Source: a virus. Taken from it: a stretch of 45,148 nucleotides of DNA. Position numbers and translations under genes: made by a program. The notes under the pieces are model-generated. The model did no database searches, was not told where the DNA came from, and saw nothing but the letters and a program-made list of their open reading frames with translations. This document shows positions 4,261-37,808 of the stretch, one piece after another. How positions within the stretch are numbered: the first letter of the stretch is position 1; each line of letters opens with the position of its first letter. The stretch lies in the IMG/VR virus record IMGVR_UViG_3300046665_000768, positions 1 through 45,148 of that record; one strand, given 5' to 3'.

Positions 4261-4316
4261 GCGCCCACTTTTCGAAGTACCGAAATCCTGAAGCACCGCA
4301 GTATAGGAGAGAAAAA

Positions 4317-5419: not shown

Positions 5420-5841
5420 CAGAATTCTCCTTTCCGCATAATGTTGGACAGCCGGGTGGCACGCGCTCCAACCTGTTTAGCCCAGGCCGAATCGAGCATT
5501 TCCTTGGCCGCTGCGTCGTATCGGCCAGCCTTGATCAGTTCGAGCGTCTGGGTAAATCCAAGCAGTTTTTTGATCCCGAGGTTGAACGCCATGTTGGCGA
5601 GAACGTTCTGCCGCGCCTCGCTGAGCTGCCGCCACCATGGTAAGCGCCGGTCAAGATCACTCTCGACCAACGCGATGTCGTTCTTCAGCATCAGGTCGAT
5701 TTCGTTGTCGAGGAATGGACGATCCGTGAGATTGCGGCCAACACCGCCTGTCCACTTGCCAGCCGTGTCCAGGTACATGAGGGGGCGGCGGCCCTCGTCG
5801 AGCGTAAGCTGGGCTGCGAGTTTTTCTGCGTCCATGATCAT
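5419..5841 (-). CDS. T4-type lysozyme (endolysin, glycoside hydrolase family 24)
   Basis: Muramidase that cleaves peptidoglycan at the end of the lytic cycle. It is 140 residues with the Glu-Asp-Thr catalytic set in the T4-lysozyme arrangement: Glu16 in TLDEG, Asp25 in MYLDT and Thr31 in KWTGGVG. A helical lobe with RQNVLANMAFNLGIKKLLGF follows, as in GH24 enzymes. ATG 5841 is preferred because it forms an ATGA overlap with the previous gene and has GGAG just upstream; a second ATG two codons later is possible. There is no signal peptide or SAR segment, so export must depend on the holin genes on either side. Confidence 0.92.
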   Translation of the reverse strand: MIMDAEKLAAQLTLDEGRRPLMYLDTAGKWTGGVGRNLTDRPFLDNEIDLMLKNDIALVESDLDRRLPWWRQLSEARQNVLANMAFNLGIKKLLGFTQTLELIKAGRYDAAAKEMLDSAWAKQVGARATRLSNIMRKGEF

Positions 5842-6083
5842 GCTCTCCAATGCGCCGCCAACCAGGTAAGGCCGCTGCCAATCGCACCGGCAGCGCCGCC
5901 CATTAACATGAGAGCCCGCCATCCGCCGCGAGCCTCGTCCATCGCGCTGATCAAGCGATCAAGCTTCGCGTTGAGTTCGACATTGGTCGTGCGAAGATCA
6001 GCCACTGCTACCTTGAGGTGAGCAACTTCCACCTGGATCGCGGCCACAGCAATAGCGTTTTGCTGTTCAAGCGTATGGTTCAT
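5838..6083 (-). CDS. XhlA-like small coiled-coil membrane protein of the lysis cassette
   Basis: An 81-residue protein with an N-terminal coiled coil (about residues 5-50, with VEVAHLKVAVADLRTTNVELNAKLDRL) and one C-terminal membrane helix (MLMGGAAGAIGSGLTWLAA). This is the plan of haemolysin XhlA-type holin-associated proteins. It is the first gene of the lysis cassette; AGGAGAGG precedes its ATG, and it overlaps the lysozyme by ATGA. A dyad element identical in plan to two others in this prophage lies about 70-100 bp upstream and probably drives the cassette. A holin or antiholin role is inferred from topology. No Rz/Rz1 spanin pair is recognisable nearby. Confidence 0.6.
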   Translation of the reverse strand: MNHTLEQQNAIAVAAIQVEVAHLKVAVADLRTTNVELNAKLDRLISAMDEARGGWRALMLMGGAAGAIGSGLTWLAAHWRA

Positions 6084-6124: not shown

Positions 6125-6183
6125 TATATCCACATGATGCGGATTTCCTTGTCTCAATTCTCGGAAAAGTGGGACAGTTTTTT
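6125..6183 (-). promoter_or_regulatory. Late promoter/activator element A (lysis cassette)
   Basis: Contains GTCTCA (6151-6156), a 13-bp spacer ATTCTCGGAAAAG and TGGGAC (6170-6175), flanked by six T (an A-tract on the transcribed strand, 6178-6183). A 56-bp block here (6126-6181) matches 23865-23920 with only three mismatches. CATCAT on the minus strand (6139-6134) is a candidate -10 element, 26-27 bp from the dyad centre. It lies in the 137-bp gap before the lysis genes. I infer the binding site of the Mor/C-like activator encoded at 28833-29189. Confidence 0.68.
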
Positions 6184-6220
6184 GAACGCATGAAATGGAA
6201 CGTACAGAGGTGTCGATCTA

Positions 6221-6727
6221 TCAGGCTTTCGCGTAAATAATCGATGCTTTCGGGTAGTCAACCATTTGCAGGTCAATCGGGCGAACACGCCTCATAACGC
6301 CCGGGTCGAACAGCCTCGTCCCGCCGGACAGGACGATGGCAAACACCAGGTCGGAACACCACCAGCAACTGTCGTCCGACCAGTCTTCCGAGTAGGTCAG
6401 CGGAATGCCGATAGCACCGAACCAGTCGTAGCCCTTGCCCACCTGAGCCTCAGCAAACTGGACAGCGGCATCAAGGTCAGGCACCCATACCTGCATGTCG
6501 CGGTAGACGACGACACCGGCCATCAGGTCGTCGACGGTGCCAGCCCGGCAGCCACGCGTCATCGACGCTTCGTAGGCCCGACCATCGATAATGGCGATCG
6601 CATGGCTGAACTGCCGCGATCCGGAGGCGATGCCTACGGCCAGGCTGAGTGGGTTGTAGGGCCAGCGGCTGGTGAGCCGGACCGTGATGTGGCCGCTGCG
6701 CCGGTTGCTCTTGATGGGCGTAAGCAT
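6221..6727 (-). CDS. Tail-tip peptidase-like protein (permuted papain/YiiX-like fold)
   Basis: A 168-residue protein with the His-then-Cys order of permuted NlpC/P60-like (YiiX/LRAT-type) enzymes: FSHAIAIIDGRAYEAS with His42 and, about 80 residues later, DDSCWWCSDLVFA with Cys124 as the likely nucleophile. Such proteins are common as the last tail gene of siphophages, where they may open peptidoglycan during DNA entry. The ATG at 6727 overlaps the previous stop (TGATG). Long in-frame sequence upstream is out-of-frame reading of the neighbour and was excluded. The fold is fairly clear; the substrate is inferred. Confidence 0.68.
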   Translation of the reverse strand: MLTPIKSNRRSGHITVRLTSRWPYNPLSLAVGIASGSRQFSHAIAIIDGRAYEASMTRGCRAGTVDDLMAGVVVYRDMQVWVPDLDAAVQFAEAQVGKGYDWFGAIGIPLTYSEDWSDDSCWWCSDLVFAIVLSGGTRLFDPGVMRRVRPIDLQMVDYPKASIIYAKA

Positions 6728-7560
6728 CAGATCTCCTCGATTTCGATGGTGGTGGAATAGGCCCGCGCGTACTGGATGGCGACGTCGGAGTCTTTGGAGC
6801 GCCGGCCGTAGATCATGTTGTCCCGCTCGAGCTCGAGATCCGACGAATTCGGGAACAGGCTGACCAGGATCGGATAGGCCCGACTGTTGCGCAGGATATT
6901 GACGAAGGTGGCCCGGTCGGCCGGCGGCATGAGCGACAGGTCGATCGGCATCTGGCGGTAGATGTAGCCAGCGTCCGCGCCCTGGCCGCCGGCGTCGGTC
7001 CGATAGAGATCCGTGGTGTCCACCGGCGTCATCGACGCACTCGATGCGTTGTACACCGGCGCCCAGTACGCGCCCACGACCAGGCAAGCCGCCTCGATGT
7101 AGCCCTGCAGGTTACTTGCGTCCGCCAGATCGATCACGATCCGCTGCACCGACGCGGCGGCAAACCAGATGCGCGCGTACGCCCCGCCACCGTTCGCGTA
7201 CGCACTTGCAGCCTGGGCGGCCGTCCAGCCGCGCAGGCGAACCGCCGGTGCCGGGCACGCCAGCTGTGCGGCGGTGTCGAATACCTGGGTTACGCCGGCC
7301 GCGTCGGAGTAGCCGCGCACGCGGATCGTCGCCGTCGGCGAAAGGTTGCAGAACGGGAGCGCGACGCACGACACGGTCTCGGCCGCGGACCAGGTCACGG
7401 TCAGCGTCGCCGTAGTGCCGGTGGCGCGCCACACGACGGACTTGTCATCGATCTGCAGGTTGGATACGGCCAGCACGCCCGAGGTGCTCGATGCGGTCAG
7501 CGTCGCCGCGCGGCTGGCGGCGTTGTCCGCCACGATGCGCATGTTGTTCACGCCGGCCAT
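6727..7560 (-). CDS. Minor tail/tail-tip structural protein
   Basis: A 277-residue beta-rich protein starting MAGVNNMRIVADNAASRAATLTAS. The N-terminal half (LTVTWSAAETVSCVALPFCNLSPTATIRVRGY) looks like a galactose-binding/discoidin-type jelly-roll, as in phage tail-tip proteins that sit beside an NlpC-like peptidase. It has no membrane segment. It starts inside the last codons of the upstream DUF4376 gene (13-bp overlap) and is coupled to the peptidase-like gene downstream. The virion role rests on position and composition; no exact family is named. Confidence 0.58.
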   Translation of the reverse strand: MAGVNNMRIVADNAASRAATLTASSTSGVLAVSNLQIDDKSVVWRATGTTATLTVTWSAAETVSCVALPFCNLSPTATIRVRGYSDAAGVTQVFDTAAQLACPAPAVRLRGWTAAQAASAYANGGGAYARIWFAAASVQRIVIDLADASNLQGYIEAACLVVGAYWAPVYNASSASMTPVDTTDLYRTDAGGQGADAGYIYRQMPIDLSLMPPADRATFVNILRNSRAYPILVSLFPNSSDLELERDNMIYGRRSKDSDVAIQYARAYSTTIEIEEI

Positions 7561-8192
7561 GCGATCGCCTCGACTTCTTCGATGGTGGTGGCGGCCGTGA
7601 TTTGCTCGCGCAGGGCCCGGCCAGTGTCGTACACCTGGGTGACCTGCATGCCCAGGGCGATGCCCAGCCCGATCATCCCGTCGGCGTCCAGCGTGCGCGT
7701 GGTGTTGTCGGTCAGGGTCCAGGTGATCGAGTACTCTTGGCCCGACTGCTTCGCCATCCAGGCCAACTGCGTCGCGCCGCTGATGCGCTCCTTGTCGGCC
7801 TGGTAGGCCCCGCCGTCGTAGATCACGTCCTTGGCCTCGGCCGCGGCGCGCGCCAGCTTGATGCGGGTCCAGGCGCGCTCCTTCGCCGCCTCAAGGGTGC
7901 CGCTGAGATCGAGCACGCGCTCGCCGCCGTTGAAAGGCGAGGCCTCGAGCGAGACCAGTGCCGTCTCCACCTCGTCCAGTAGGGTCGGCTCGTCGCCAGC
8001 GAGCCGGTCAACCGGCACCGAAACGCGCCACTGCCAGGCGATCGGCAACCCGTCGAGCGAAGCCTGCTCGCTCGCGTGCGAGTTCACCGTAACCAGTGCG
8101 GTATTCGCCACCAGGTCGACCGCAATGCTGATGGCGCGGTGGTAGTTGATCGTGATGCCGTTATCGGCCTGCACGGTTTTCGTGATGGGCAT
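7548..8192 (-). CDS. DUF4376-containing tail-fibre accessory protein
   Basis: A 214-residue protein whose C-terminal half has the DUF4376 pattern: an arginine/lysine helix (RAWTRIKLARAAAEAKDVIY) followed by DGGAYQADKERISGATQLA, a tryptophan-containing strand (SITWTLTDNTTRTLDADGMIGLG) and a final helical LREQITAATTIEEVEAI. DUF4376 proteins are found next to tail-fibre genes of many phages. The N-terminal half resembles a short phage tail protein. The start ATG 8192 has AAAGGACGACATG immediately before it. A second protein of this family is encoded at 25160-25648. Confidence 0.7.
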   Translation of the reverse strand: MPITKTVQADNGITINYHRAISIAVDLVANTALVTVNSHASEQASLDGLPIAWQWRVSVPVDRLAGDEPTLLDEVETALVSLEASPFNGGERVLDLSGTLEAAKERAWTRIKLARAAAEAKDVIYDGGAYQADKERISGATQLAWMAKQSGQEYSITWTLTDNTTRTLDADGMIGLGIALGMQVTQVYDTGRALREQITAATTIEEVEAIAWPA

Positions 8193-8201
8193 GTCGTCCT
8201 T

Positions 8202-9026
8202 TCAGGGGAATTTCGTGTTGTCGATGACGGCGAGGCGGGAATAGCCCGACACGCCAGTAGAGCCGATGCCGCTCAGGCCACCGTCGTATTCCTCGCGGCG
8301 GTCATAGACGCCAATCCGCTTCACGAGCAGGTTGTTGCCCGAGGCGGCATACGCCGTGTAAAACTTGTAGATGTCGTACTGTTCGACATATTGATTGGTT
8401 TCCCAGTTGGTATAAGCACCGACGAAATACGGCCAGGCGATCGTGCTGCGCGGCGCGGCCGAGATGGATTTGTTGGCCATATCGAACGGCATGACTACCG
8501 TGGCGTCGTATTTATTGGCGGCTTCGGACTCGGTGGGCACCGTCGAGACCAAGGTCAACTCAGTGCTGTAGGTGTCTCCGGCCAGCTTCAGCATGCGCAC
8601 TCCGGCATCGAATACCATCTTGCCGGCATCCGTACGGATGATCAGGTTGGGCGTCCGGCCGCTGCCATTCGGCCAGTTGTCGGCGAGTCGTCCGAACGCC
8701 CTCAAATACAAGCCAGACAAAGCTGCCCCGTTGTTCAGGTTGGACACGAAGATGTGCGCGGTCCAGGAGTTGCCGCCGTTGCTAACTAACCCGGCCAGGG
8801 ACACCCCGACCCTGTAGGCCAGCGGCGCGGCTGAAGTCGGGTTTGTGTCCGAGATGTTGTACGGGATGCTGAAGAACACCAGAGGCATGCCTACGCAGCT
8901 GAAGGTGACGGTGGTGAACCCTCCTCCGCCGTCAATTGCATACTTGCCCAGGTACGCATAGCCCACATGATCTTGGGTGATCGACAGGTTGCCGCGCTGG
9001 TTCACTGTCTTGAAAACCGCGCTCAT
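8202..9026 (-). CDS. Probable tail-tip/fibre structural protein
   Basis: A 274-residue, strand-rich protein starting MSAVFKTVNQRGNLSITQDHVG and ending in GVSGYSRLAVIDNTKFP. It is rich in Gly, Ser, Thr, Asn and Tyr and has no membrane helix, like receptor-binding or fibre-associated proteins. The start is set by an ATGA overlap with the gene at 9023-9367. It lies between the large tail-tip protein and the DUF4376 protein, as host-range modules usually do. No family is recognised, and its detailed role is unknown. Confidence 0.5.
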   Translation of the reverse strand: MSAVFKTVNQRGNLSITQDHVGYAYLGKYAIDGGGGFTTVTFSCVGMPLVFFSIPYNISDTNPTSAAPLAYRVGVSLAGLVSNGGNSWTAHIFVSNLNNGAALSGLYLRAFGRLADNWPNGSGRTPNLIIRTDAGKMVFDAGVRMLKLAGDTYSTELTLVSTVPTESEAANKYDATVVMPFDMANKSISAAPRSTIAWPYFVGAYTNWETNQYVEQYDIYKFYTAYAASGNNLLVKRIGVYDRREEYDGGLSGIGSTGVSGYSRLAVIDNTKFP

Positions 9027-9367
9027 TGCAACGCTCCCGAATACATGACCGTCAGGATGCCGGGCGCGATCGACATATCCGTGCGGGTGCTGTCCATGAA
9101 AACGGTCACAGTGGGCACGCCGCTGGGATACGTGACGCGGCAACTCGGGATCAGCATGGCGTCCAACGTCGTGTAATTGCACAGCATAAAAAACGCGGCC
9201 AGCTTTTTCCCTGCGTATTGCGGGTACGTCACCACGTACTGCCGGTTGCTGTAACTGGCCGCCACGAGCGTTATCTCTTGGCTGAAGAACAGCACATCGT
9301 CGACCCAGGAGTCGAACATGACTTCAGTGCCACTATCGTTCCAAATTCTGACGACAGGATTGGGCAT
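9023..9367 (-). CDS. Small tail-module protein of unknown function
   Basis: A 114-residue protein, MPNPVVRIWNDSGTEVMFDSWVDD, predicted to be mostly beta strand. It directly follows the large tail-tip protein and overlaps the next gene by ATGA. The small size, absence of a signal peptide and tight packing argue for a structural or chaperone role in the tail tip. It is not recognised further. Confidence 0.5.
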   Translation of the reverse strand: MPNPVVRIWNDSGTEVMFDSWVDDVLFFSQEITLVAASYSNRQYVVTYPQYAGKKLAAFFMLCNYTTLDAMLIPSCRVTYPSGVPTVTVFMDSTRTDMSIAPGILTVMYSGALQ

Positions 9368-12300
9368 CTAGAAATTCCCTACCTGGATTACTGGGACGTT
9401 TGCCGAGTTGAACCATTGATAGCCCTGATCACCCAACTCATAGTGCTGTCCGCTGGTCGCGTTGCGCAGTAGGCCGATCACCGCCGACAGCGCGGAGAGA
9501 TTGCCGATGCTGGCCTTGTTTATCAGGGCCAGGTCGATGGCCGCAGCCGCGATATAGGTCGAGATGTTCGCAGCGGTCATCTGGCCGCTCAGGTTCGCGC
9601 CGATCGTGGCGCCGTAGGTGGCGTTCAGATCGCCGGCGTAGCCAATAGCCCTGGAGTCCAGTGGGGCGCCCTCGGTCCAATTGGAGAACACTGTCTGGTT
9701 GGCTGTCGCATCCCCGAAGTAATACTGACCCGCGAACATATAAGGGTCAGCTTGCCCGGTGAGGATCATGGTCGATGTCACGCGCGCATAGAAAGCACCG
9801 GCCGGCGCTGTGACCAACATTTGCGAACGTGGATAGGGATTCCAATCGTACCTTGCTCCGTTGTCTACAACTTCGTTACCCCCGTCCCAGGTGACGAAGT
9901 TTTTGTTGGCGTCATACCAGCCCACCCTAACCTGGGTTCGGCAGCGGTGAGCACTAATGCCGACACTGGCCTCGTACCGCTGACCCGCAATCACAGGGAT
10001 GTAGCCATTCGCCTCGGAATACAGGTCAATTACAGCTCCCGCCGAGGGGGCGCCGAATGCGTGGAGGAAAACGCACTTTCGAGATGGCCCCCAATCGGAA
10101 TTGTCGGAGTAAAGCACCGTTCCGCCATCAAGCGCGATGGCGGAAGGGTTGCTGACCACGTACCCGCTTTTACTGGCCGGTGCGCTGTTTGCAAGCTTGT
10201 TCTTTCCGACAGCAATGCCGGACGCCATGGTTGCCGCCTTGGCTGCGATGGCGTTTTGCAGGATCGCCTTGGCTTCATACAAAAGCCGGAACGATTCTCG
10301 AAAAGCGGCTCGATCAATGACCGTATCCTGCGACACGTCGGCCCAGCCCGGGACCATGCTTAACAGATAGTTGGATGTATTGGTATGGCAGGTATCGTAA
10401 TAGGATACGTCCATGCCGAGATCGATAGCCTTGTTGCGCGTATAGGTCCAGTCAGCGTCGATGGTGACCCACTCGGTAACGAGCTGCGCCTTCTCATTAC
10501 GATCGAGAATGCCATCGTTCGCCATAGCATCCGTTATTGCCTTGGCTGCGTTGGCTGTAGTTTGGGCCCCCGCCGCGTTACTTTGAATCTTGGCTGCGAT
10601 GGCGTTGAGCAGCCCTTGCTTGGCGGTGTAATACGTGGCCCATGTGGTCCGGAACGTCACGCCATTTATCGGGGTGTCCCCGCCAGTATCGTCCCAGGCC
10701 GGGTACGCGCCAGATTGCCCTAATCCAAGGAGATGAGAGCTCAGTGCGCTGTACGCGTTGTCGTATGCAACCCTGGAAACTGCTAGTGCATCTGCCTGGG
10801 AGTCGATCCCTGACTTCTCTGCGTCGATCACCTGCCAAGCCTGGATCGTTTGCAGCTTCTCACCCTTCGACAGCACGTTATCGCTTGAGATTGCAGTGAT
10901 GGCTGTATTCGCAGCGTCAGCAGCAGCCTGTGCGGCGGCAACTGTGGTAACCGATGGCGCAGGGCCGTACTTGCCGATGGAAATCCAGTCCACGTCGAAC
11001 ACATCAGCTGCCGATGCGCCAAGGTCGATACGGATGTGGTTGATTGTCTGGCTCGTCCACCCTGGCACGGATGACATATCCCATTCAAGTACCGCCCATG
11101 TGTTTAGTGCCAGGGCTGTACCTGCGTTATAGCCAGAGCCATCCGTACCCTCCTGATTGAAGTACAGAGCGCCGTCCCACGCTGAACCTGCTGTACGGCG
11201 AATGCGTGCGCGCACCTTGTCGTAAATCCCCCCGGGGAACGACAAGGATGGGGATTCCAGGATAGGATCACCACTGGTTGACGTCACGTGCATTACGCCT
11301 GACGCCGACGTAATGTTAGCTCCGGTCACTCCAAACCAGCCTTCCGTAGAGCTTTCAAACTCCCAAGTCTTGTATGCGGCGAATACCGAGGTGGCTGCTG
11401 CATTGATGGCTGGCGTCAGTTCGCTGTTCAGCGTGCCCGCCGCCGCATAGGTGGTCGATAGCCCCGTTCCGGACCCGAGAATCACATTTCCTGCGGCATC
11501 GCGGATCGTCAGGCCTCGCGTGTCGATCGCTTCAGGTAGGATCGAGCCCTTGACGAACACATTCCCGTTCCAGACGTAGTCGACGGCGATCCAGGCACTG
11601 CCGCTGTACATCTTCTGGACGCCGAAGGTGCGATCCGCCTTGTACAGGTTGACCAGGTCGCGGACCTGCGGCGCGCCATAGCCGGCGGCGGCCAGCGCTG
11701 CCACCGCTTCGGCATCCACCCATACGCTGCTGGTGGTCACGGCAGAGATGTCGACGTTTCCGCGAATGCCCTGCGGCCCTGTCGTCCCGGGCACTCCATC
11801 GGAGCCACGGAACTTCGACCATACATAGTCGGTCTTCGTCGTCGACTCCGTCGCCGTCGTCTTGTTGACCGCGATGCCGATGTACAACGTCGACGCGGTC
11901 GGGGTGTCGTACAGGCCCGTGCCGTCGGCTGCATCCGAATACTTGATCCACGTGTACAGCGTGCTGCCGTCCGCGCCCTTGGCGCCTGCCACGCCATCGG
12001 CACCTTTGATCAGGGACCACGTGTAGTCGGAGGCGGTGGTCGACTCGGTGGCGGTCGTTTTGTTGTAGGCGAGCCCGATGTAGGCCTTGCCACTCGGGTC
12101 ATCGCTCAGCCCTGCGCCGGCGGCCGTGTCGGCGTACTTGATCCATGTGTACGAGGTCGCGCCGTCCGCCAGCTTGGTGACGGTCGCGATCTTGGTGTAC
12201 ACCTCGCCGTCCACGGTGATGGTGGCCGTGATCGTGCCCGACACCGCCGAGAAGTTGGCGTAGGTGAGCGTCAGCTCGTTGCCGTTCACCGTTGGCGTCA

Positions 12301-12511
12301 TCCCGTCGGTCCACGACCAGGTGACCGTGCCGGTGATGTTGAGTAGGGTCGCCTGGAAGAGAAACGATGCCGGGGACGCCGACGTCCCTGTCGACGCCAG
12401 CTTGAAGATGGCTGCCGGGGGCGTGACGAACATGCCGCGGTTGTTCGCCACGGTATAGCGTGGCGTGGTGGCCATGATCAGCACATCGCGGTCATTTACG
12501 ACTGTCGCCAT
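9368..12511 (-). CDS. Large tail-tip/host-specificity protein with collagen-like and tandem repeats
   Basis: A 1047-residue protein, probably the central fibre or adsorption protein at the tail tip. The N-terminal part has an Ig-like strand region. Two ~60-residue repeats of the pattern YTWIKYxDxAxGxGLxDxP ... YIGxAxNKTTATEST ... DYxWSxxxG follow, separated by short Gly-x-y collagen-like stretches (GADGVAGAKGADG; GSDGVPGTTGPQG). A carbohydrate-binding-like jelly roll is next (TWEFESSTEGWFG ... IHNIR-type region), then two helical repeats (ISSDNVLSKGEK and MANDGILDRNEK) and a second jelly roll. ATG 12511 overlaps the upstream stop (TAATG). Much longer in-frame sequence upstream is antisense-like noise over the next gene. 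It is the likely receptor-binding determinant. Confidence 0.75.
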   Translation of the reverse strand: MATVVNDRDVLIMATTPRYTVANNRGMFVTPPAAIFKLASTGTSASPASFLFQATLLNITGTVTWSWTDGMTPTVNGNELTLTYANFSAVSGTITATITVDGEVYTKIATVTKLADGATSYTWIKYADTAAGAGLSDDPSGKAYIGLAYNKTTATESTTASDYTWSLIKGADGVAGAKGADGSTLYTWIKYSDAADGTGLYDTPTASTLYIGIAVNKTTATESTTKTDYVWSKFRGSDGVPGTTGPQGIRGNVDISAVTTSSVWVDAEAVAALAAAGYGAPQVRDLVNLYKADRTFGVQKMYSGSAWIAVDYVWNGNVFVKGSILPEAIDTRGLTIRDAAGNVILGSGTGLSTTYAAAGTLNSELTPAINAAATSVFAAYKTWEFESSTEGWFGVTGANITSASGVMHVTSTSGDPILESPSLSFPGGIYDKVRARIRRTAGSAWDGALYFNQEGTDGSGYNAGTALALNTWAVLEWDMSSVPGWTSQTINHIRIDLGASAADVFDVDWISIGKYGPAPSVTTVAAAQAAADAANTAITAISSDNVLSKGEKLQTIQAWQVIDAEKSGIDSQADALAVSRVAYDNAYSALSSHLLGLGQSGAYPAWDDTGGDTPINGVTFRTTWATYYTAKQGLLNAIAAKIQSNAAGAQTTANAAKAITDAMANDGILDRNEKAQLVTEWVTIDADWTYTRNKAIDLGMDVSYYDTCHTNTSNYLLSMVPGWADVSQDTVIDRAAFRESFRLLYEAKAILQNAIAAKAATMASGIAVGKNKLANSAPASKSGYVVSNPSAIALDGGTVLYSDNSDWGPSRKCVFLHAFGAPSAGAVIDLYSEANGYIPVIAGQRYEASVGISAHRCRTQVRVGWYDANKNFVTWDGGNEVVDNGARYDWNPYPRSQMLVTAPAGAFYARVTSTMILTGQADPYMFAGQYYFGDATANQTVFSNWTEGAPLDSRAIGYAGDLNATYGATIGANLSGQMTAANISTYIAAAAIDLALINKASIGNLSALSAVIGLLRNATSGQHYELGDQGYQWFNSANVPVIQVGNF

Positions 12512-16900: not shown

Positions 16901-18797
16901 TTTCCGTCGCCAGCTGGGTCGCGTACGCAAGCGCCTTGGTCTGCGCGAGCGTGGCCTGCTCGACCTCGACGCGCATGTCTTTCTCGGCGCGCAGCTGGGC
17001 TTCCAGCTCGTCGCCGATCACGATGCCTTTGCTACGCTCGTCGGCCAGGAATTTTTCGAGATCTGCCTCAGCCTTTACTGCAACCATGGCGATATCGCGC
17101 GCGTCGGCGCTCTTGCCGTACAGTTCATATTCGGCCGCGAGCGAGGCGCTGGCCGCATTCCGCGCCTGGGCGCTCTGCTGCATCCAAGCCAGGCCATCCT
17201 TTTCGCCCTGCTGCGCCTTGGCCAGATCTTCCGTCGCGGCGAGCTCGCTGAGCAAGGCGCGCACTGCAGTCAGGTGCGCATCCGACAGCTTCAGTTTCCC
17301 TGAAGCCAGGTCATGATCCAGCTTGATCTGCATTTTCTGGCTTTCCGTCGCAGATTCGCCGGACGCCAGCTCAAGCTTGTTTTGCTCGATTTTTTCGCCG
17401 ATTGCCGATGAGAGGCCGGCGTAAGCTGCCTTTTCTTTCGAACTTGCCTCTGCCGCTTTTTTCGCGCCCTCGTCCATACTGGCAAAGTGCTTGCGGACAC
17501 GCGCCTCATCGGCGGCCGTGAACGTGCTCCCGAGTTCGCCCTTGAGCTTTTTCAGTTCCTCCGCCAGCTGCTCCGGGGCGGTGGCGTATTTCTTCATTGC
17601 GTCCGCGTGCTTGCGCGTAGCTTCGGCAGCCTGCTCGGCCGCACTCTGCACTGTTTTGTACTGGGCCAGGTCGTCCTTCCCACTGGCTTTTTTGGCTGCT
17701 GCTGCATCCGCAGCAGCCTTTTGGGCTTTGGCCGCAGCACCAAGAATAGCTTCACTCTTGGCGTCGACGTCCTTCCGCGCCTGCTCGGCCTCGGCTTTCA
17801 TCATTTCACCAATGGCCCTGGCGGCTGCAAGATCGCCGTGCGCAACTGCATTGGCCTGGGCGGCCAGGCCGCCGAGCTCTTTCCCCACCTGGGTGAATAC
17901 ATAGGCGACATTCACGCCCAGCACGGCAACCGCTTCGAAGACGGTGGTGAGGGCCACGTGCAGCAGGCTCGCCTCCTTGACAGACTCCCCTTCCTTCCGA
18001 GCCGAGCCGGCCACGGCGTCGAGGATCGCACTGAGGTCGGCGAGCGAGCTTGCGACAGCCATCACGCCGGACTGCATCGCTTCACCGATCCCGTTCTGTG
18101 CGATCGTCCGCATGGTGCTTTCCCAGGCATCGCCCAGGTTGCTGATAGCGCCGTCGAGCGTTGCGGCGCGCGCCTCCATAGCATCACCGAAGTTCGTTTC
18201 TCCGATGCCCTGCAGGTAGGCCTCGATTTCCTTGGCGTTGTTGCCGATCGTCCTGGTCACACCCTGGAAGGTTAGCGACACCTCGTCGCCGTTCTGCTTG
18301 GCCTTGATGCCGAATTCTTTCAGGCGCTCGAACTCGCCCGTTGCCGCGTCCGCCACGGCCTCGACCATCTGGTCCAGGCCCTTGCCCATCGCCGCAGCTG
18401 TATTGCCGTAGGCGCGCAGCGCCTTCTCGGACGGGTCCAGGCCCAGGTTCCGCATCTTGATGAAGGCTTCCGTCGCCTCGGCCACGCTGTATGGCGTGGT
18501 GGCGGCGAACGCCTGCAGAGCCTTGAATGCCTGACTGGCGTTGGCGGTCGAGCCAGTAGCTGTGACGAGGGACGCGTTGATCTTGTCGAATTCACGCTGG
18601 GCGCTCATCACCTGCTCGGTGAGGGCGCCCAGGCTGAGCCCGATGCCCGCAAATGCGGCCAGTTCCTTGAGCGAGGTTTTCGCAACAGCCGACAGCTCAC
18701 CGAAGGAGCCGCCGATTCTCTCGATCTGACGTTGCGCGGTCTGCGCGCCATCGACGACGAAACTGATTACGGCGCCTGATCCTGGGGTGAATGCCAT
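13971..18797 (-). CDS. Tail tape measure protein
   Basis: A 1608-residue protein that sets tail length and is ejected with the DNA. It starts MAFTPGSGAVISFVVDGAQTAQRQI. It has the tape-measure N-terminal domain (FKALQAFAATTPYSVAEATEAFIKMRNLGLDPSEKALRA), very long Ala/Gln/Glu/Lys helical coiled coil and a hydrophobic central region (about residues 740-990). The ATG at 18797 is chosen over one nine codons earlier because AAAAGGA lies about ten bases before it and the upstream gene stops at 18806. By the usual 1.5 Angstrom per residue this predicts a long flexible tail near 240 nm. The downstream neighbour is the hub gene. Confidence 0.93.
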   Translation of the reverse strand: MAFTPGSGAVISFVVDGAQTAQRQIERIGGSFGELSAVAKTSLKELAAFAGIGLSLGALTEQVMSAQREFDKINASLVTATGSTANASQAFKALQAFAATTPYSVAEATEAFIKMRNLGLDPSEKALRAYGNTAAAMGKGLDQMVEAVADAATGEFERLKEFGIKAKQNGDEVSLTFQGVTRTIGNNAKEIEAYLQGIGETNFGDAMEARAATLDGAISNLGDAWESTMRTIAQNGIGEAMQSGVMAVASSLADLSAILDAVAGSARKEGESVKEASLLHVALTTVFEAVAVLGVNVAYVFTQVGKELGGLAAQANAVAHGDLAAARAIGEMMKAEAEQARKDVDAKSEAILGAAAKAQKAAADAAAAKKASGKDDLAQYKTVQSAAEQAAEATRKHADAMKKYATAPEQLAEELKKLKGELGSTFTAADEARVRKHFASMDEGAKKAAEASSKEKAAYAGLSSAIGEKIEQNKLELASGESATESQKMQIKLDHDLASGKLKLSDAHLTAVRALLSELAATEDLAKAQQGEKDGLAWMQQSAQARNAASASLAAEYELYGKSADARDIAMVAVKAEADLEKFLADERSKGIVIGDELEAQLRAEKDMRVEVEQATLAQTKALAYATQLATENKKFAAESISDPQAREQALLNIEADTWRERIRIAGEGTEAQKKLQAEFDTWYANRQKGVASSVDLTQATALLDIMSALDEAAQSAAQGMADSFGRVGSAIGGLTTALSGYGRTQAAIAAQLAAATKDAGGDQTKVQRANAMAAEQSAQAQVKSYGDMASAAKDFFSENSAGYKVLEGVEKAYRAAEMAMALESMAQKIFFKESEVAANTALNATKLTGEAASTAASTGLAATEASAWGVTAVVKAIASLPFPYNLAAGAATLAAVVAVGAKMVGGLGGGSVSVSEQRQAANGTGSILGDSNAKSESISKSLDLIKNATYQDLAISSSMLTVLQSINAGINGLGNILYQTDGFSTTTAGTQLGSAASLASSTAFNAVTGGIIGLTLDKLTGGWISSTLGKIGNSIFGGNVHTLDTGVTASTGTLGQIASSGVAVSQYADTKTDGGWFSSDKYNTQLASLGSEVDDQFTKIFIDMRDAITEGASMLGLCGDAFTAQLNSFVVDLGKISTKDMSTEEVQTALQNALSKVSDDMAKFAVAGLQQFQDAGEGAFETLARIATEYQTVEVVFDSFGKTFGQVGLSSMEARERLIDLAGGLDEFASQGQYFLENFFSEQEQAAALKARIDPTLAQYGLSTEGDDASQMFRDFVVGLDTTTEAGAQAYTALMSIAPAFKTIIDTASDVLDERTDLQDQLDQLTMTSAELLEKQRDALDASNQSLFDQVQAAQAVRDAQDEAKTSLGNFITQMKSFATTAAGLNNNLVLGGLSTLTPEEQYAEARRQFEETRSLAAAGDSTAQGNLSAIEQTFLQLSQQINGSDAQYSSDLATVMQTNDQLAQWATDSVDVAQASLDALNDSSASLTDISATLTAIAQGVQYLPAALTGQDTLSYAQAFAAIDYSSIGTSNMTALVDEIKALRTQVADLLSEAKGRRSDAQQQTGAQIQAAETIANKAAETVVDGVREAVTDAAYAEANSTRELK

Positions 18798-18805
18798 ATC
18801 TAGAC

Positions 18806-19168
18806 CTATCCTTTTGCTGTCCACTCTTCAAGAGCGGCGTTTTCCATCGCCTGGATCAATCCGAACAACCGAAGCCGGTCTTTCTTGCGGATGCCGCGCA
18901 AACGCATGCATGACTCGACGCCGGCATAGTTAAGGCCGACACGGCGCTCCATGTCCTTTTGCCACTGTGTCTGGATCGACAACCAGAGCCAAAATGCCTC
19001 TTCGTTTTCCGGCCAGAGCCAGAACTCGTCTTCATCGATCACGGACTCTTCGGCGCAGTAGAGGCCGAGGGCGGCCAGTGCTTCCGCCACCATATCGCTA
19101 GCCTCGGGCTCGTCCTGCGCGCCCCACTGCAGCTGGCCACGCACCAGAAGGCGCGCAGCCTCCCTCAG
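18806..19168 (-). CDS. Tail assembly chaperone, T extension made by -1 frameshift (DUF1799-like)
   Basis: Encodes the C-terminal 120 residues of a G-T type fusion. The frame is open from the slippery site at 19168 and contains LREAARLLVRGQLQWGAQDE ... and a Trp-rich acidic region (DEFWLWPENEEAFWLWLSIQTQWQ), the hallmark of DUF1799 tail proteins. The only initiation codon near the start is a GTG at 19144 without a good ribosome-binding site, so production by frameshifting from the upstream gene is more plausible. The fusion would be about 230 residues. In lambda the matching gpGT recruits tail-tube subunits to the tape measure, and the tape measure is the next gene here. Confidence 0.82.
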   Translation of the reverse strand: MREAARLLVRGQLQWGAQDEPEASDMVAEALAALGLYCAEESVIDEDEFWLWPENEEAFWLWLSIQTQWQKDMERRVGLNYAGVESCMRLRGIRKKDRLRLFGLIQAMENAALEEWTAKG

Positions 19169-19174
19169 TTTTTT
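19115..19174 (-). promoter_or_regulatory. Programmed -1 frameshift signal
   Basis: The zero-frame codons GTA AAA AAC TGA contain the canonical heptamer A AAA AAC (19174-19168), placed one codon before the stop. Nine bases downstream begins a perfect 9-bp GC-rich stem, CTGCGCGCC (19158-19150) pairing with GGCGCGCAG (19123-19115). This is the position expected of a stimulatory structure. Slipping by -1 leads directly into the DUF1799 frame. Confidence 0.85.
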
Positions 19175-19497
19175 ACGACCGCGCCCACTTCCTTAAGGTA
19201 GGACTGGTAGCAAACCACCGGCATGCCCGCCTGTTCCAGCACGGCGGCCAGGGTGTCGGCATCGAACGGAATTGGCGCGCCGCCCTCTTCGAGGACATCT
19301 TCCCAACCGTTGGTGACGCGCTGGACAAAGTCCTTCACGGACTCCTCCTTGTTCTTGATCGCGTCATCGATCTCGGTCTGGGTCAGCCGATCACACAGGA
19401 GAACGAAGTTGAAATTAACGGGCTTGCCGTCTTCATCCTTGAGCGTGCCCTTGACCGGGACGCGCAGCTTTTTGCGGATTACGAGTTTGTATGCCAT
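19165..19497 (-). CDS. Tail assembly chaperone, G part
   Basis: A 110-residue protein, MAYKLVIRKKLRVPVKGTLKDEDG, located between the tail tube and tape measure genes, the invariant place of the gpG-like chaperone. It is rich in charged residues (DRLTQTEIDDAIKNKEESVKDFVQRV). It ends at a TGA immediately after an A AAA AAC slippery heptamer, so most ribosomes should make this short form and a few percent the G-T fusion. The chaperone function is inferred from synteny and the frameshift signal. Confidence 0.85.
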   Translation of the reverse strand: MAYKLVIRKKLRVPVKGTLKDEDGKPVNFNFVLLCDRLTQTEIDDAIKNKEESVKDFVQRVTNGWEDVLEEGGAPIPFDADTLAAVLEQAGMPVVCYQSYLKEVGAVVKN

Positions 19498-19528
19498 TGC
19501 AGAATCGCTTTCTATGTAGGGTTTCGGA

Positions 19529-20488
19529 TTACAGGTGGACGATGCGCCATTCGTCGTTGCCGTTGACCGGCACGAAGCGTACGTCGTAGCCGATCAGGCG
19601 CTTGCCGTTCTTGTCGACCTTCTTCGGCGCCAGGAACTGGGCCGCAGGGGCGAACAGGATGATCTTGTTGCCGGTGGTGGTCCCGATGGTGATCGCCAGG
19701 CTCTGGGTCGTGTTGGCCTTGACGGCGGCCATCAAGGCGACTTCCTGGGCGGCGCTCAGGTCGAGCTCCAGACTGCCGGTCGATTCACGGTCGGTGATGT
19801 CGACCGTCTCGCTGCTCAGCATTGCGTTGTAGTTGACCTGGTTGCCCGCCTTCAGCTCGAGGCCGGTGCTCGAGTAGACGGTGCCACCGGTCAGCACGCC
19901 GGCGGCGTAGGTCGCGCCCAGCGTGATGTCGACCACGTTGGCCTTGGTCATCGGAACCGGCTTCTTCCAGGCGGTGAACGTGCCGGTATCGCTGGCGGCG
20001 CTGATACCGCCGTCCAGGCCGATCCAGTCGAACTTCAGCAGCGGCCGCTCGCCGATCTTGGCCGACAGGGTGAAGTCGCCCATGGTGGCCAGCAGCTTGT
20101 GCAACACACCATCGTCGTAGTAGTTCTGGGTCGCGGACTTCAGGCCGGTCGAGACCGGGGTGTACTCCACACGGGCTGGGGTCGCCAGGACGCCTTCGGC
20201 GCAGGCGCAGGCCTGCAGCAGCTTGCCCCAGGCCGGCGCGGTGCCAGCGGTGCCAGAGCCGGCCAGCTCGACCGAGTAGCTCATCTTGATGCTGGCCGGG
20301 CCGACCAACTGCTCGCTTGCGCCGAACGTGCCACGGATGAGCGAGCGGTCGATGCTCTGGGCGTCGAGCGGGGTAATGCTCGCGTCGCTGATCAGGATGG
20401 CGTTGGTCGAGCCGGTGGGCGCGGCGTCGGTACCGGTGGTGGTTTCGATCGCTGCGGTGACGAGCGTGTTCTTGATGTAACGTGGCAT
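19529..20488 (-). CDS. Major tail tube protein
   Basis: A 319-residue structural protein that polymerises into the tail tube. It starts MPRYIKNTLVTAAIETTTGTD and shows the long alternating strand pattern of phage tube proteins (IKMSYSVELAGSGTAGTAPAWGKLLQACA; VEYTPVS). The C-terminal end contains a strand-rich segment ending in NGNDEWRIVHL. The order tube, chaperone pair, tape measure is the standard siphovirus order. ATG 20488 follows a GAATAAGCC stretch; no strong ribosome-binding site is seen, although tube proteins are abundant. Confidence 0.85.
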   Translation of the reverse strand: MPRYIKNTLVTAAIETTTGTDAAPTGSTNAILISDASITPLDAQSIDRSLIRGTFGASEQLVGPASIKMSYSVELAGSGTAGTAPAWGKLLQACACAEGVLATPARVEYTPVSTGLKSATQNYYDDGVLHKLLATMGDFTLSAKIGERPLLKFDWIGLDGGISAASDTGTFTAWKKPVPMTKANVVDITLGATYAAGVLTGGTVYSSTGLELKAGNQVNYNAMLSSETVDITDRESTGSLELDLSAAQEVALMAAVKANTTQSLAITIGTTTGNKIILFAPAAQFLAPKKVDKNGKRLIGYDVRFVPVNGNDEWRIVHL

Positions 20489-20491
20489 GGC

Positions 20492-20668
20492 TTATTCCTC
20501 GCTGGCGGCTTGTGCTGCGGGTTCGTCGGCGGCCGGCGCGGCGTCCGTGGCCGGGGTGTCTTCAGGAGCGGGGTCGTTCGAGATCCACTTCCACTCGGCT
20601 TCATCGAAGGTCCAGGAGCCGCCGCCGGGCGGCGTCGGGATCGCGCGTTTGATGTTTTCGTTCGTCAT
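20492..20668 (-). CDS. Small acidic protein between tail terminator and tube
   Basis: A 58-residue protein starting MTNENIKRAIPTPPGGGSWTFDEAEWKW, with a low-complexity Ala/Pro/Glu tail (PAPEDTPATDAAPAADEPAA). It is separated by 2-3 bp from genes on both sides. Similar Trp-containing small proteins with Ala/Glu-rich tails occur in the tail operons of related phages. Its function is unknown. The start was set from the tight spacing and the natural N-terminus. Confidence 0.55.
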   Translation of the reverse strand: MTNENIKRAIPTPPGGGSWTFDEAEWKWISNDPAPEDTPATDAAPAADEPAAQAASEE

Positions 20669-20670
20669 GA

Positions 20671-21102
20671 TCAGTTCAGGGTTGAATTGTTGGTACGGTG
20701 GTCTGCGACGTACGTCAGCCGGACCCACCCGGTTTTCTTTTCTTCGACCGTGTTCTCAGCCTCAAGCCCGGCGATACGCAAATCGCCTACCAAGCCACCC
20801 AACGTGCTGTCCTGCGCCAGGCGCTCGACCACTGCGGTGACCAGGTCATCGACTGCAAGGTCCCCCGAATCCTTCTGGCTGCGCGCCAGGCACTCGATCG
20901 TGATGCGCGTCTGCCAGTCGATCGGGCCGCCGGAGATCGTGCTCGCCTCAGGCAGGGCACTTTCCCACTGGACGCTGACAGCCTTCTCGGCCTGTCCAGG
21001 CACCACGGTCGCCCGGGCGCGGTCGATCAGAGTGCACACCGGGGGCGAGGCCTTGAGCGCGTCGATGACTGCGCTGACGATCTGGGCGAATGCAGTGTTC
21101 AC
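20671..21102 (-). CDS. Tail terminator / minor tail protein (gpU-like position)
   Basis: A 143-residue protein, MNTAFAQIVSAVIDALKASPPVCTLIDRA, with an N-terminal helix and the strand pattern VSVQWESALPEASTISGGPIDWQTRITIECLARS, characteristic of tail-completion/terminator proteins. This protein caps the finished tail tube and joins it to the head. It lies between the head-tail connector and tube genes and overlaps the upstream gene by ATGA. Confidence 0.7.
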   Translation of the reverse strand: MNTAFAQIVSAVIDALKASPPVCTLIDRARATVVPGQAEKAVSVQWESALPEASTISGGPIDWQTRITIECLARSQKDSGDLAVDDLVTAVVERLAQDSTLGGLVGDLRIAGLEAENTVEEKKTGWVRLTYVADHRTNNSTLN

Positions 21103-21395
21103 TGGGCGCTCGCAAGGGTCAGCACGGTCAGGCCGGTACCGTCAGGTGCTTCAGCCAAGATCTCGTAAGGCACGCCAGCGACCACGATCAGGTTGCCGAC
21201 CGGCGCGCTCATCACTGCGCTCGACGCCACCGTCACAGTCGGGCTCGTATCGGCAGCGCCCATGCCGAGGTTTGCCACGGACGACGGCTTGCGGAAAATG
21301 CCGGTTGCCGTAGCGCCGCCGATGATGACCTGCACGTTGGCGAGCTGGTTCAGGACTGCGGCGTTGGCAAACACCTCGAGATCGGCGAAGAACAT
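21099..21395 (-). CDS. Head-tail connector (gpFII-like)
   Basis: A 98-residue beta-rich protein, MFFADLEVFANAAVLNQLANVQVIIGG, with IFRKPSSVANLGMGAADTSPTVTVASS and VPYEILAEAPDGTGLTVLTLASA. This matches the lambda gpFII/Phage_attach type of head-tail joining protein, which follows the capsid genes and precedes the tail terminator. It overlaps the next gene by ATGA. Confidence 0.72.
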   Translation of the reverse strand: MFFADLEVFANAAVLNQLANVQVIIGGATATGIFRKPSSVANLGMGAADTSPTVTVASSAVMSAPVGNLIVVAGVPYEILAEAPDGTGLTVLTLASAQ

Positions 21396-21405
21396 GGCGG
21401 CCGGC

Positions 21406-21738
21406 TTAGCGGATGACGCCGTCGAGCAGGACGCGCGCGGTGGTGTCGCTGGCGGTCTTGGCCACCGTCAGCGCGCCCACGAGCGTGTTGTTCGTGGCGG
21501 TGGTGGTCAGGCGGCGGTTGGTGTTGTCCCAGTACATCTTCACGCCCTGGGCGCCGGTATCGGTGGTCAGCGCCGTGATATCGAACACGCCTGCGCGCTC
21601 GATTTCGACCTGGGCGCCGTTGGCGGCATCGCACGAGGCGACCCCGAACAGCGCGCCGACCAAGACACCTTGGCCACTGGTGACGGCGTAGGGGGCGATG
21701 ACGGTGATCGCACCGCCCTTTTGCACTTTGTTTTTCAT
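21406..21738 (-). CDS. Capsid decoration protein, DUF2190 family
   Basis: A 110-residue protein starting MKNKVQKGGAITVIAPYAVTSGQGVLVGALFGVA, the DUF2190 pattern, with AGVFDITALTTDTGAQGVKMYWDNTNRRLTTTA after it. DUF2190 members are beta-rich proteins that decorate the phage head and usually lie directly after the major capsid gene, as here (46-bp gap). Confidence 0.85.
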   Translation of the reverse strand: MKNKVQKGGAITVIAPYAVTSGQGVLVGALFGVASCDAANGAQVEIERAGVFDITALTTDTGAQGVKMYWDNTNRRLTTTATNNTLVGALTVAKTASDTTARVLLDGVIR

Positions 21739-21784
21739 GGTGGTGGTTCCTATGGATCAGTGGTGAACTGTGGCCACGCCGCGC

Positions 21785-23866
21785 TTATGCGCCGACGCCC
21801 TGGTACAAGCCGCGGTAGTCGACCGCCTTCGCGGCGAAGTCCAGGCGGCACTTCCAGGTGACGCCGTCGACTTCGAAGCCATTCTGGCTTTCGATGACGG
21901 GGCCTTCCGCGCCGTCCAGGTAGCAGTACTCGACGGTGTCGATCTGGCTGTTGTTGCTGGCCAGGTACCAGGCGGCGGAGCTCACGGCATCCAGGATCGG
22001 CTCGACGATCGGCTCCAGCGCGGTACGGCCGCCGGCGCGGAATTCGTTGACGTCGGTCTGCTTGGCCGGCACGTAGTTCGCGCTGGTCAGCTGGTAGGCA
22101 TCCTGCTCCAGGGCGACCGGCACGATCAGGAAGTTCGGCGCCAGATTGAGCTCTTCCTTGGCCAGGCCCTTCTGCAGACGCATCGCGGTGCGGCCGGCTT
22201 TCAGGGCGCTCAGCTGCAGCGCGGAGCCTGCGCCGGTGCCGAGGTTGCCGTGGCTGGCGTGGAACAGTGCGGTGCCGTCGCCCATCGCCGGGTTCGAGGT
22301 CAGCTGGCTGTACACCAGGCGGTTTTCCAGGCGGCTCGAGCTGGAGCCGAAGGCGCTGACCAGGCGCTCGAACGCGCGCAGGTCGTCGTTGATGATGGCC
22401 TGGCGGGTCAGCGCGACCATGCGGCCGTAGGTGACCAGACCGTAGGTGATGCCGGCATCGATCATGGTGCCGTATTTGAACTCGCCGGCTTCGTTGGTCT
22501 GCAGCAGGTCCGGTGCGCCCGACAGCTGGACGATGCTGATGTTCTTGAAGTCCGGGGCGTTCGGCGCGCGGCGGGCCCACTGGGTATAGGTGCCCTGGTT
22601 CTCCTGATAGGCCGCGCGCATGCGCTTGTTGGCGACGTTGGCGAAGATGGCGGCGAAGTCGCTCGTGCTGTGGGCGCCCGAGCGGTAGTGCAACATTTCG
22701 GTGGCCAGCTGCATGCGCGACATGCCACGCGTTTCGATGCCGCGCACACCCAGGAATTCGCGGCCAATCTCGATCAGGCTCAGGCCACGGTATTGGCGCC
22801 CGTTGTCGGTCAGCGCGGCGCGCGCGTCGACGCGGTTCATCATCGCTTCTTCGATGCCGGCCATGCGGGTCTGGTGTTCGTCGCCGACGGTCTGGATGCG
22901 CACGTTGCGATGGCCGCCGGTACCGGCGTCGGCGCGGGCCAGCTCTTCCAGCACGGCGGCGCGTGCCTGATCGACCGAGTTGCCGCTGCGGATCAGGCCG
23001 GCGGCCAGCTGGCCGACGCCGTGGCGGGTGCACATTTCGGTGATCTCGGCGGCGCGGGTGGCGGCCGCCGTCTCGGCAGCGCGTACGGCGGCGTCATCGC
23101 CGGCCGGCGGGGTCGCGGCGGCGGTGGGCGCAGTTGCCGGAGCCGGAGTTGCCGGGGCGGCGGAGCGGGTCGGATCGGCGGGCGCGGTGGTAGGTGCGCC
23201 CGGCTGGGTAACAGGGTTCGGCATATTGAGGTCCTCGTGGTTTGGGCTGGGCGCCCGGGTGGTGAATTCGCATGGATGGCCATCGGCCGGCTGGCTACGC
23301 GTGCTCGCGTCGGCGTCGGCCGGGACGGTGACAAAACTGATTTCGTTGGGCTGCCACGCGACGGCGCGGTACAGCGGCATGTTCACGCCGTCGGTGCGGT
23401 CGATGGCACGGGTGATCTCGTACTTGCTGATGCTGTAACCGAAGCTGATCGCGCGGATGATGCCGGCGCGGATATCGGCGACGATGCCAGCCATTTCCGG
23501 GCGCGTGGAGAGTTTCAGCGTCGCCCTGCCCTCGCCGCTCTCGATGCTGCCGCGAATAGCGATGCCGAGGATGGCGTTCACGCCGCCGTAGGTGCGGTGA
23601 CCGTCCAGCACTTGCACGGTTCCGGCGTCGAAGCGCGACATGTCCACCGCCTCCGGCGTGACTTCGAGCTCCTCCTCGTACATGGTCTCGGTCCACCAGT
23701 CGTAACGGCGCACGCGCGCGCCTGTGGTCCAGACCACGTCGATGGTGTTGTCAGCTTCGTTGAAAGTGGCCGGGACCAGCTCCGCGCCGCGGCTGAGCGG
23801 CGGCATGTTCCGAGGATCGGTCGCGGAGCGGGTGGCGTTCTGCGGGGTGGTGGTCGGTGTGGTCAT
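21785..23866 (-). CDS. Prohead protease - major capsid protein fusion
   Basis: A single 693-residue frame joins an HK97-type maturation protease to a capsid protein. Residues 1-205 contain FDAGTVQVLDGHRTYGG (His90 as probable catalytic base) and IIRAISFGYSISKYE (Ser141 as probable nucleophile). Residues 215-270 are a Pro/Ala/Thr linker. A helical scaffold-like segment (AAVRAAETAAATRAAEI ... ARAAVLEELARA) and the HK97-fold capsid domain follow, ending in DYRGLYQGVGA. Met215 (ATG 23224) is preceded by GAGGA seven bases upstream, so a separate 479-residue capsid/scaffold product may also be made by internal initiation. The first ATG (23866) has no clear ribosome-binding site and sits at the edge of late element B. 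Confidence 0.88.
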   Translation of the reverse strand: MTTPTTTPQNATRSATDPRNMPPLSRGAELVPATFNEADNTIDVVWTTGARVRRYDWWTETMYEEELEVTPEAVDMSRFDAGTVQVLDGHRTYGGVNAILGIAIRGSIESGEGRATLKLSTRPEMAGIVADIRAGIIRAISFGYSISKYEITRAIDRTDGVNMPLYRAVAWQPNEISFVTVPADADASTRSQPADGHPCEFTTRAPSPNHEDLNMPNPVTQPGAPTTAPADPTRSAAPATPAPATAPTAAATPPAGDDAAVRAAETAAATRAAEITEMCTRHGVGQLAAGLIRSGNSVDQARAAVLEELARADAGTGGHRNVRIQTVGDEHQTRMAGIEEAMMNRVDARAALTDNGRQYRGLSLIEIGREFLGVRGIETRGMSRMQLATEMLHYRSGAHSTSDFAAIFANVANKRMRAAYQENQGTYTQWARRAPNAPDFKNISIVQLSGAPDLLQTNEAGEFKYGTMIDAGITYGLVTYGRMVALTRQAIINDDLRAFERLVSAFGSSSSRLENRLVYSQLTSNPAMGDGTALFHASHGNLGTGAGSALQLSALKAGRTAMRLQKGLAKEELNLAPNFLIVPVALEQDAYQLTSANYVPAKQTDVNEFRAGGRTALEPIVEPILDAVSSAAWYLASNNSQIDTVEYCYLDGAEGPVIESQNGFEVDGVTWKCRLDFAAKAVDYRGLYQGVGA

Positions 23867-23921
23867 ATCCGCATGATGCGGATTTCCCTGTCTCAATTCT
23901 CGGAAAAGTGAGACAGTTTTT
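23864..23921 (-). promoter_or_regulatory. Late promoter/activator element B (capsid and tail operon)
   Basis: Perfect dyad CTGTCTCA / TGAGACAG around the 13-bp spacer ATTCTCGGAAAAG (core 23890-23914), with a five-T flank. It is 56 bp long and has three mismatches to element A. The minus-strand CATCAT (23878-23873) lies at the same distance from the dyad as in element A. If it is a -10 box, transcription would start at or next to the capsid ATG, giving a nearly leaderless mRNA. ATCCGCA-TGA-TGCGGAT (23868-23884) is an additional small hairpin. Confidence 0.7.
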
Positions 23922-28784: not shown

Positions 28785-28792
28785 GCCGCTGA

Positions 28793-37799: not shown

Positions 37800-37808
37800 C
37801 GGAAAGTT

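Follow-up and report, generated by a model that had tools for sequence, protein, structure and literature searches.

Three related inverted repeats in the viral record IMGVR_UViG_3300046665_000768 (positions 1 to 45,148; this entire 45,148-nucleotide stretch is referred to as the window) very probably are the operators of three late promoters that are activated by the phage's own Mor/C-family protein, the 118-residue product of a gene at 28833-29189. The repeats are designated dyads A, B, and C. The assignment draws on a -10 hexamer that lies at a fixed distance from the dyads in the window and in relatives, and on the covariation of the dyad arms with the recognition helix of the activator.

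Three dyads precede the late gene blocks of the window

An earlier note on this DNA had described three shared elements of the form GTCTCA-13 bp-TGRGAC, and these were located as listed in Table 1. The exact pattern GTCTCA-N13-TGRGAC is found at no other place in the window. The remaining matches all carry two or three mismatches and number 32, fewer than the 56 expected from shuffled sequences, which bears out the uniqueness that was claimed. Dyads A and B differ at three positions over 56 bp, exactly as proposed, and they remain 91% alike over 67 bp. Read along the gene strand, the layout is an A-tract, GTCTCA, the 13-bp core TTTTCCGAGAA with a single free base at either side, and TGAGAC.

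The genes downstream of all three dyads are on the minus strand, and the placement of the dyads 5′ of lysis, capsid/tail, and gpW/portal blocks was upheld: dyad A precedes the holin-like and endolysin genes, dyad B the protease/major-capsid fusion, and dyad C a gpW-like gene that is followed by the gene for a lambda-type portal. Weak -10-like hexamers had been placed 25-27 bp from the dyad centers; they correspond to CATCAT, CATCAT, and TACCCT for A, B, and C, respectively, spanning 24-29 bp from the center. No plain sigma-70 promoter was found in the dyad A region, as expected for an activator-dependent promoter. The T-tract described after the right arm is present in the window as five to six T residues. 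However, the genes are on the minus strand, and read along that strand the tract is a run of A residues that precedes the left arm. Nor is the T-run a general feature of relatives.

Table 1. Features of the three putative late promoters, their first genes, and the activator gene
Feature	Coordinates	Strand	Remarks
Dyad A, putative activator site of lysis promoter	6151..6175	minus	Gene strand GTCCCACTTTTCCGAGAATTGAGAC; one arm mismatch
-10 CATCAT, lysis promoter	6134..6139	minus	11 nt past dyad A
A-tract upstream of dyad A	6178..6183	minus	Gene strand
First lysis-unit gene, 81 residues, holin-like	5838..6083	minus	C-terminal hydrophobic stretch; inferred leader of ~44 nt; good Shine-Dalgarno GGAGAGGG
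Endolysin gene	5419-5922	minus	After the holin-like gene
Dyad B, putative activator site of capsid promoter	23890..23914	minus	Gene strand GTCTCACTTTTCCGAGAATTGAGAC
-10 CATCAT, capsid promoter	23873..23878	minus	11 nt past dyad B
A-tract upstream of dyad B	23917..23921	minus	Gene strand; ~-55 to -51
Protease/major-capsid fusion gene	21785..23866	minus	Pfam Phage_capsid_4 (E 8.5e-56), Peptidase_S78; ATG 6 nt past -10; no Shine-Dalgarno; predicted leaderless
Dyad C, putative activator site of gpW/portal promoter	28809..28833	minus	Gene strand GTCTCAGTTTTCCGAGAAATGAGAC
-10 TACCCT, gpW promoter	28792..28797	minus	11 nt past dyad C
A-tract upstream of dyad C	28836..28841	minus	Gene strand; UP-element-like
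gpW-like head-tail adaptor gene	28572..28784	minus	PHROG head-tail adaptor Ad1 (E 7e-15); ATG 7 nt past -10; no Shine-Dalgarno; predicted leaderless
Late-activator gene, 118 residues, Mor/C family	28833..29189	minus	Recognition helix IGRATVYR; stop codon overlaps dyad C

The gene that overlaps dyad C encodes a Mor/C-family protein

The 118-residue protein matched the Pfam family PF08765 (Mor) over residues 56-113 (E 1e-8; 35.6 bits versus a cut-off of 24.9) and the PHROG late transcriptional activator family (E 4e-10), and is the sole PF08765 match in the record. Profile comparison also matched it to the Mor structure 1rr7 (E 7e-5) over YIPR and the helix-turn-helix (HTH). Judged by sequence, the protein is a Mor/C-family transcription activator. 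Late activators of the P2 Ogr/Delta type are likewise small phage proteins that act on a dyad upstream of late promoters, but they are zinc-binding and belong to another family. The Pfam search returned no match of the 118-residue protein to the Ogr/Delta type and no serine-recombinase catalytic domain.

An AlphaFold model of the activator was of moderate confidence, with a mean predicted local distance difference test score of 73.5, and presented the helices in the order expected from 1rr7, in which an N-terminal helical domain is joined by a YIPR linker to a C-terminal HTH. Its neighbors in Foldseek were Tn3 resolvase, 1rr7, and the Mu C/Mor polymerase complexes 9l0x/9l0y. The 1rr7 and 9l0x/9l0y structures ranked second to seventh with probabilities of 0.82-0.99, but with E values of 0.05-0.11 and template modeling scores of ~0.3-0.35. 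As these E values lie near 0.05-0.1 and the model is moderate, family membership rests on sequence.

A -10 hexamer at fixed spacing accompanies the dyads in relatives

The INPHARED phage collection holds no close relatives of the record by DNA, and a tblastn search of it with the activator returned distant Mor proteins alone (~30-34% identity). Searching viral contigs with the activator yielded 112 relatives, 80 of which were kept, with loci totaling 998 kb. In an independent DNA scan the fixed bases of the dyad were found again, exactly, in 74 viral-contig stretches. The 80 activator loci were searched broadly with GTnnCA-N13/14/15-TGnnAC, permitting at most one arm mismatch and without requiring a -10. 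Among the 133 dyads recovered, NANNNT was positioned exactly 11 nt past the right arm on the gene strand in 124 and on the opposite strand in one, and every dyad near the activator stop codon (56/56) possessed the -10.

With the hexamer taken as -12 to -7, alignment of 72 non-redundant elements revealed an invariant A at -11 and T at -7 (72/72), the hexamer beginning at the twelfth nucleotide past the right arm and thus leaving an 11-nt gap. At any other spacing at most five of these elements had YANNNT, and the alignment contained no TTGACA-like column at -35. The dyad patterns with which the elements were collected contain no -10 and, therefore, the hexamer is not built into this result. The 13-nt loop was kept base by base across elements. 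The arms are 6 bp and the spacers 13-16 bp, giving sites of 25-28 bp; the 25-bp dyad occupies -48 to -24 with its center at ~-36, which shifts as far as -37.5 in longer sites. The right arm is 11 nt from the -10 at every spacer length, a constancy that points to the downstream subunit as the one whose contact with polymerase is decisive. Adenine accounts for 61-87% of bases at -55 to -51 in the 72 elements, and with spacers of 14 or 15 bp the A-tract shifts along with the left arm.

Whole records of relatives, scanned with a site pattern that includes the -10, usually contained two or three copies, all on one strand, and control hits were zero. Twenty-eight of 30 dyad-bearing records had one PF08765 gene by profile and none had two, although records may be fragments. 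The other two comprise the source of locus L124, which has an activator relative by tblastn, and a 22-kb fragment. Host records with the motif were from Massilia, Undibacterium, Delftia, Comamonas, Caldimonas, and Rhodoferax, all members of the Burkholderiales, and from one unassigned proteobacterial metagenome-assembled genome.

A 17-bp palindrome, ATCCGCATcATGCGGAT, lies over the -10 of promoter B (23867-23883) and recurs with one mismatch at promoter A (6128-6144). Among relatives, the sequences on either side of the -10 show more complementarity than shuffled sequences do in promoters of the capsid and lysis classes; the short inverted repeat around the capsid-class -10 scored z 5.2 versus shuffles, a value that related sequences could inflate.

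The dyad arms covary with the recognition helix of the activator

Half-sites were compared with the recognition-helix residues of 96 distinct activators in a survey in which one candidate step requires the -10. Five helix classes were evident, and arm and helix agreed in 94 of the 96 cases, the two exceptions being one-base arm variants. Helices of the form [GS]R[AS]TVYR accompany the arm TGAGAC, whereas GRTTVYR occurs with TGGnAC (paired with GTTCCA or GTCCCA), HRxTVYR with TGCGAC (paired with GTCGCA), S[RK]RTVYR (the RR/KR class) with TGGCAC or TGTCAC (paired with GTGnCA), and xVTVW (the VTVW class) with TGAAAC (paired with GTTnCA). The other-arm variants belong to more distant relatives and, within one genome, sites mostly agree in their arms and in the length of the spacer. 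A tree from which the recognition residues had been masked required 16 arm changes and 14 helix changes. This covariation ties the 118-residue protein to the dyads and is stronger than any other evidence that they would be read by this protein and not another. Activator and operator probably have switched specificity together several times along a simple residue-to-base code, a judgment that is made jointly with that on the phage clade considered at the close of this report.

Capsid and gpW messages are predicted to be leaderless

Promoters before long genes were classed as capsid promoters, and Shine-Dalgarno sequences were scored by anti-Shine-Dalgarno energy with a threshold of -4.5 kcal/mol. 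The ATG was 6-8 nt past the hexamer in 56 of 59 non-redundant capsid-class promoters and in ~21 of 50 gpW-class promoters, and lysis-type promoters have leaders. Energies at or below the threshold were reached by 5% of the starts in predicted leaderless capsid genes and by 18% in predicted leaderless gpW genes, compared with 89% for portal, the second gene of the gpW operon. The window follows the same pattern: its gpW and capsid genes have no Shine-Dalgarno, and the lysis gene has one after the leader indicated in Table 1. If transcription starts 7 or 8 nt past the hexamer, +1 falls on the A of ATG or a base or two off. This spacing of ATG and -10, together with the missing Shine-Dalgarno, predicts that the capsid and gpW late mRNAs are leaderless.

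The most durable competing explanation accepts the late regulon but holds that its mRNAs carry a short processed or alternative leader, such that capsid translation is not leaderless. The start sites on which leaderlessness depends are inferred only, and some gpW promoters of distant relatives (e.g., L058, L045, and L061) have leaders of 22-70 nt with no good Shine-Dalgarno. However, the invariant -11A and -7T occur at a single position, the ATG of capsid genes peaks 6-8 nt past the hexamer, and Shine-Dalgarno sequences are missing precisely where a leader would need one, in contrast to their frequency at the second gene of the gpW operon. A short leader is, therefore, unlikely, although it is the alternative to which most weight is given here. 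Leadered gpW promoters as a group also mostly have no good Shine-Dalgarno (14% at or below the threshold), and initiation at these genes may be unusual.

Leaderless phage messages are known for lambda cI and the Thermus phage phiYS40 (PMC11514452, PMC3594737). The resemblance lies in a start codon at or beside the 5′ end, which is predicted here, and in the missing Shine-Dalgarno. In contrast to a repressor message and a Thermus phage, the genes predicted here to be leaderless are capsid and connector genes with a dedicated activator in many Burkholderiales phages.

Other functions of the dyads are improbable

The arms are inverted repeats with compensatory changes, in many capsid and gpW genes they stand ~24 nt upstream of the ATG, and capsid-class promoters have a further short inverted repeat around the -10. 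These properties could indicate RNA hairpins before the start codon that control translation, for example via a phage RNA-binding protein. However, the ATG varies from 6 to >40 nt from the hexamer, yet the hexamer is always 11 nt from the dyad. Thus, it is the -10, rather than the start codon, that is anchored. Moreover, arm changes track the recognition helix of a DNA-binding activator, and spacers of 13-16 bp alter the loop freely. Translational hairpins are, consequently, very improbable.

Slightly less credence still is given to the alternative that the earlier note had offered, namely that the dyads are plus-strand intrinsic terminators in which a hairpin and T-tract stop antisense transcription. 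The window elements do fold on the plus strand, with energies of -7.5, -10.6, and -8.0 kcal/mol and the T-run after each. However, the gene blocks bordering the dyads are all on the minus strand, leaving no plus-strand gene to terminate, the 13-nt loop is conserved throughout, and the arms covary with the activator and not merely with each other. An A-run of at least five beside the arm, equivalent to a plus-strand T-run, was present in only 26 of 137 non-redundant sites, whereas the -10 at +11 is near universal. The terminator reading was rejected on the basis of the weak hairpins, the T-run that is not general, and a terminator scan that detected none in the dyad A region.

Least credible of all are recombination sites of the resolvase-subsite type, as might be suggested by the resemblance of the activator HTH to that of Tn3 resolvase (profile match to 5cy1, E 1.5e-4) and by arms that read TGTC..GACA in some copies: this possibility was rejected because the protein has no catalytic domain and the likeness is at the HTH level only, and the sites are single, each at a gene start with a -10 at fixed spacing.

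Comparison with the Mor and C promoters of phage Mu

Positions of the dyads at Mu Pm and Plys were taken from published coordinates. Mu Mor recognizes two 5-bp repeats with a 6-bp spacer in a 16-bp element centered at -43.5 (PMC4287176, PMC4390567), and the proximal UP element/subsite of Pm is at -57 to -52 (PMC4390567). The Mu activators belong to the same family, PF08765, and the promoters of both systems have a -10 without a -35. In Mu an activator dimer bound to the dyad stands in for the -35 element, and the same is predicted here. The UP element of Pm is situated where the present promoters have the A-tract, and the A-tract probably plays the same role. The arrangement differs from that of Pm in that the dyad is wider and lower, and the activator would reach ~12 bp further downstream than in Mu. 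Pm also serves a middle operon, the first gene of which is annotated with a ribosome binding site, in contrast to the capsid and gpW starts; the gene that follows Mu Plys likewise has an annotated site.

A parallel exists also with Mu C, a single activator from the same family that turns on several late units, including lysis, at the weak promoters Plys, PI, PP, and Pmom. However, Mu employs a two-step cascade from Mor to C, whereas here there is one PF08765 gene per record and usually two or three sites. Structures of Mu Mor/C with polymerase are available (9l0x, 9l0y, and 9vw8).

A model for late gene activation

The reading of the dyads as operators of activator-dependent late promoters can be developed into a model in which binding, activation, oligomeric state, start sites, leaderless translation, and timing are all predicted from sequence. 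A CI-like repressor gene is located at 37734-38522 on the plus strand, and leftward of it on the minus strand are a primase-type gene, the terminase, and the activator. The activator would be the last product of this leftward lytic operon (primase-type gene, terminase, and mor) and would then fire the gpW/portal, capsid/tail, and lysis promoters. One dimer, or two dimers as four activator chains are present in the Mu structures, would occupy the 6-bp arms at ~-48 to -43 and -29 to -24, which are about two helical turns apart. The bound protein would replace the -35 element and hold host RNA polymerase via the subunit on the downstream arm, with the C-terminal domain of the alpha subunit on the A-tract at -55 to -51, and polymerase would melt the -10, a poor hexamer that reads [T/C]AnnnT. 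For the capsid and gpW units, transcription would begin at the AUG or no more than one or two bases from it and produce leaderless late mRNAs, and the lysis promoter would give an ordinary leader with a Shine-Dalgarno. In its sequence-testable respects, namely the activator gene at dyad C, the fixed -10, and the covariation, the evidence supports the earlier proposal of a late regulon with minus-strand starts just downstream of the dyads.

Certain observations weigh against this interpretation. Dyad A has one arm mismatch. The site is 7-8 bp closer to the -10 than that of Mu, and polymerase contacts may differ. The activator model, which is only moderately confident, produced no Foldseek match with E <0.001. 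The protein tree is short and poorly resolved, and only three independent arm-helix pairs are on well-supported branches; accordingly, no formal p-value is claimed and the phylogenetic independence of the changes is statistically unproven. The leadered gpW promoters of distant relatives also mean that leaderlessness is not universal outside the capsid class.

Other features of the window

A perfect 21-bp inverted repeat at 33717-33737/33829-33849, whose copies are 91 nt apart, is composed of GTTAACCCT units (ACAGGGTTAACAGGGTTAACA / TGTTAACCCTGTTAACCCTGT). It is just downstream of the primase-type gene and may serve in replication or partition or act as an operator. An open reading frame (ORF) at 32882-33637 on the minus strand, between the primase-type gene and the terminase, matched PHROG 1924 ‘minor tail protein’ (E 3.5e-72); the location is odd for a tail gene, and the family name may be wrong. 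On the plus strand, a HicB-like antitoxin ORF (4251-4769; PHROG 497) is near the lysis end, and a DNA methyltransferase gene (42908-44725; PHROG 116) perhaps functions in defense or counter-defense.

Significance

A Mor/C late regulon itself is of a known kind; the unusual properties proposed here are the position of the site, a readable specificity code, and a predicted leaderless capsid mRNA. A literature search found no published description of this regulon. The window likely represents a large, largely undescribed clade of temperate phages of Burkholderiales in which a Mor/C activator binds low, at ~-48 to -24 and into the -35/-10 interval, the promoter is fused to the start codon, and the capsid operon is leaderless. 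If so, the most abundant late product, the capsid protein, would be made from a leaderless mRNA, which would be surprising, as in E. coli extract a lambda cI-lacZ message yielded more in its leadered form (PMC11514452). The pattern GTnnCA-N13/16-TGnnAC-N12-A-N3-T would provide a practical marker with which to locate late promoters and the start codons of capsid genes in prophages that lack annotation. Moreover, regulator, sites, and natural variants of matched specificity are brought together in a family that is known mainly from phage Mu, such that the recognition code and activation geometry would become directly testable.

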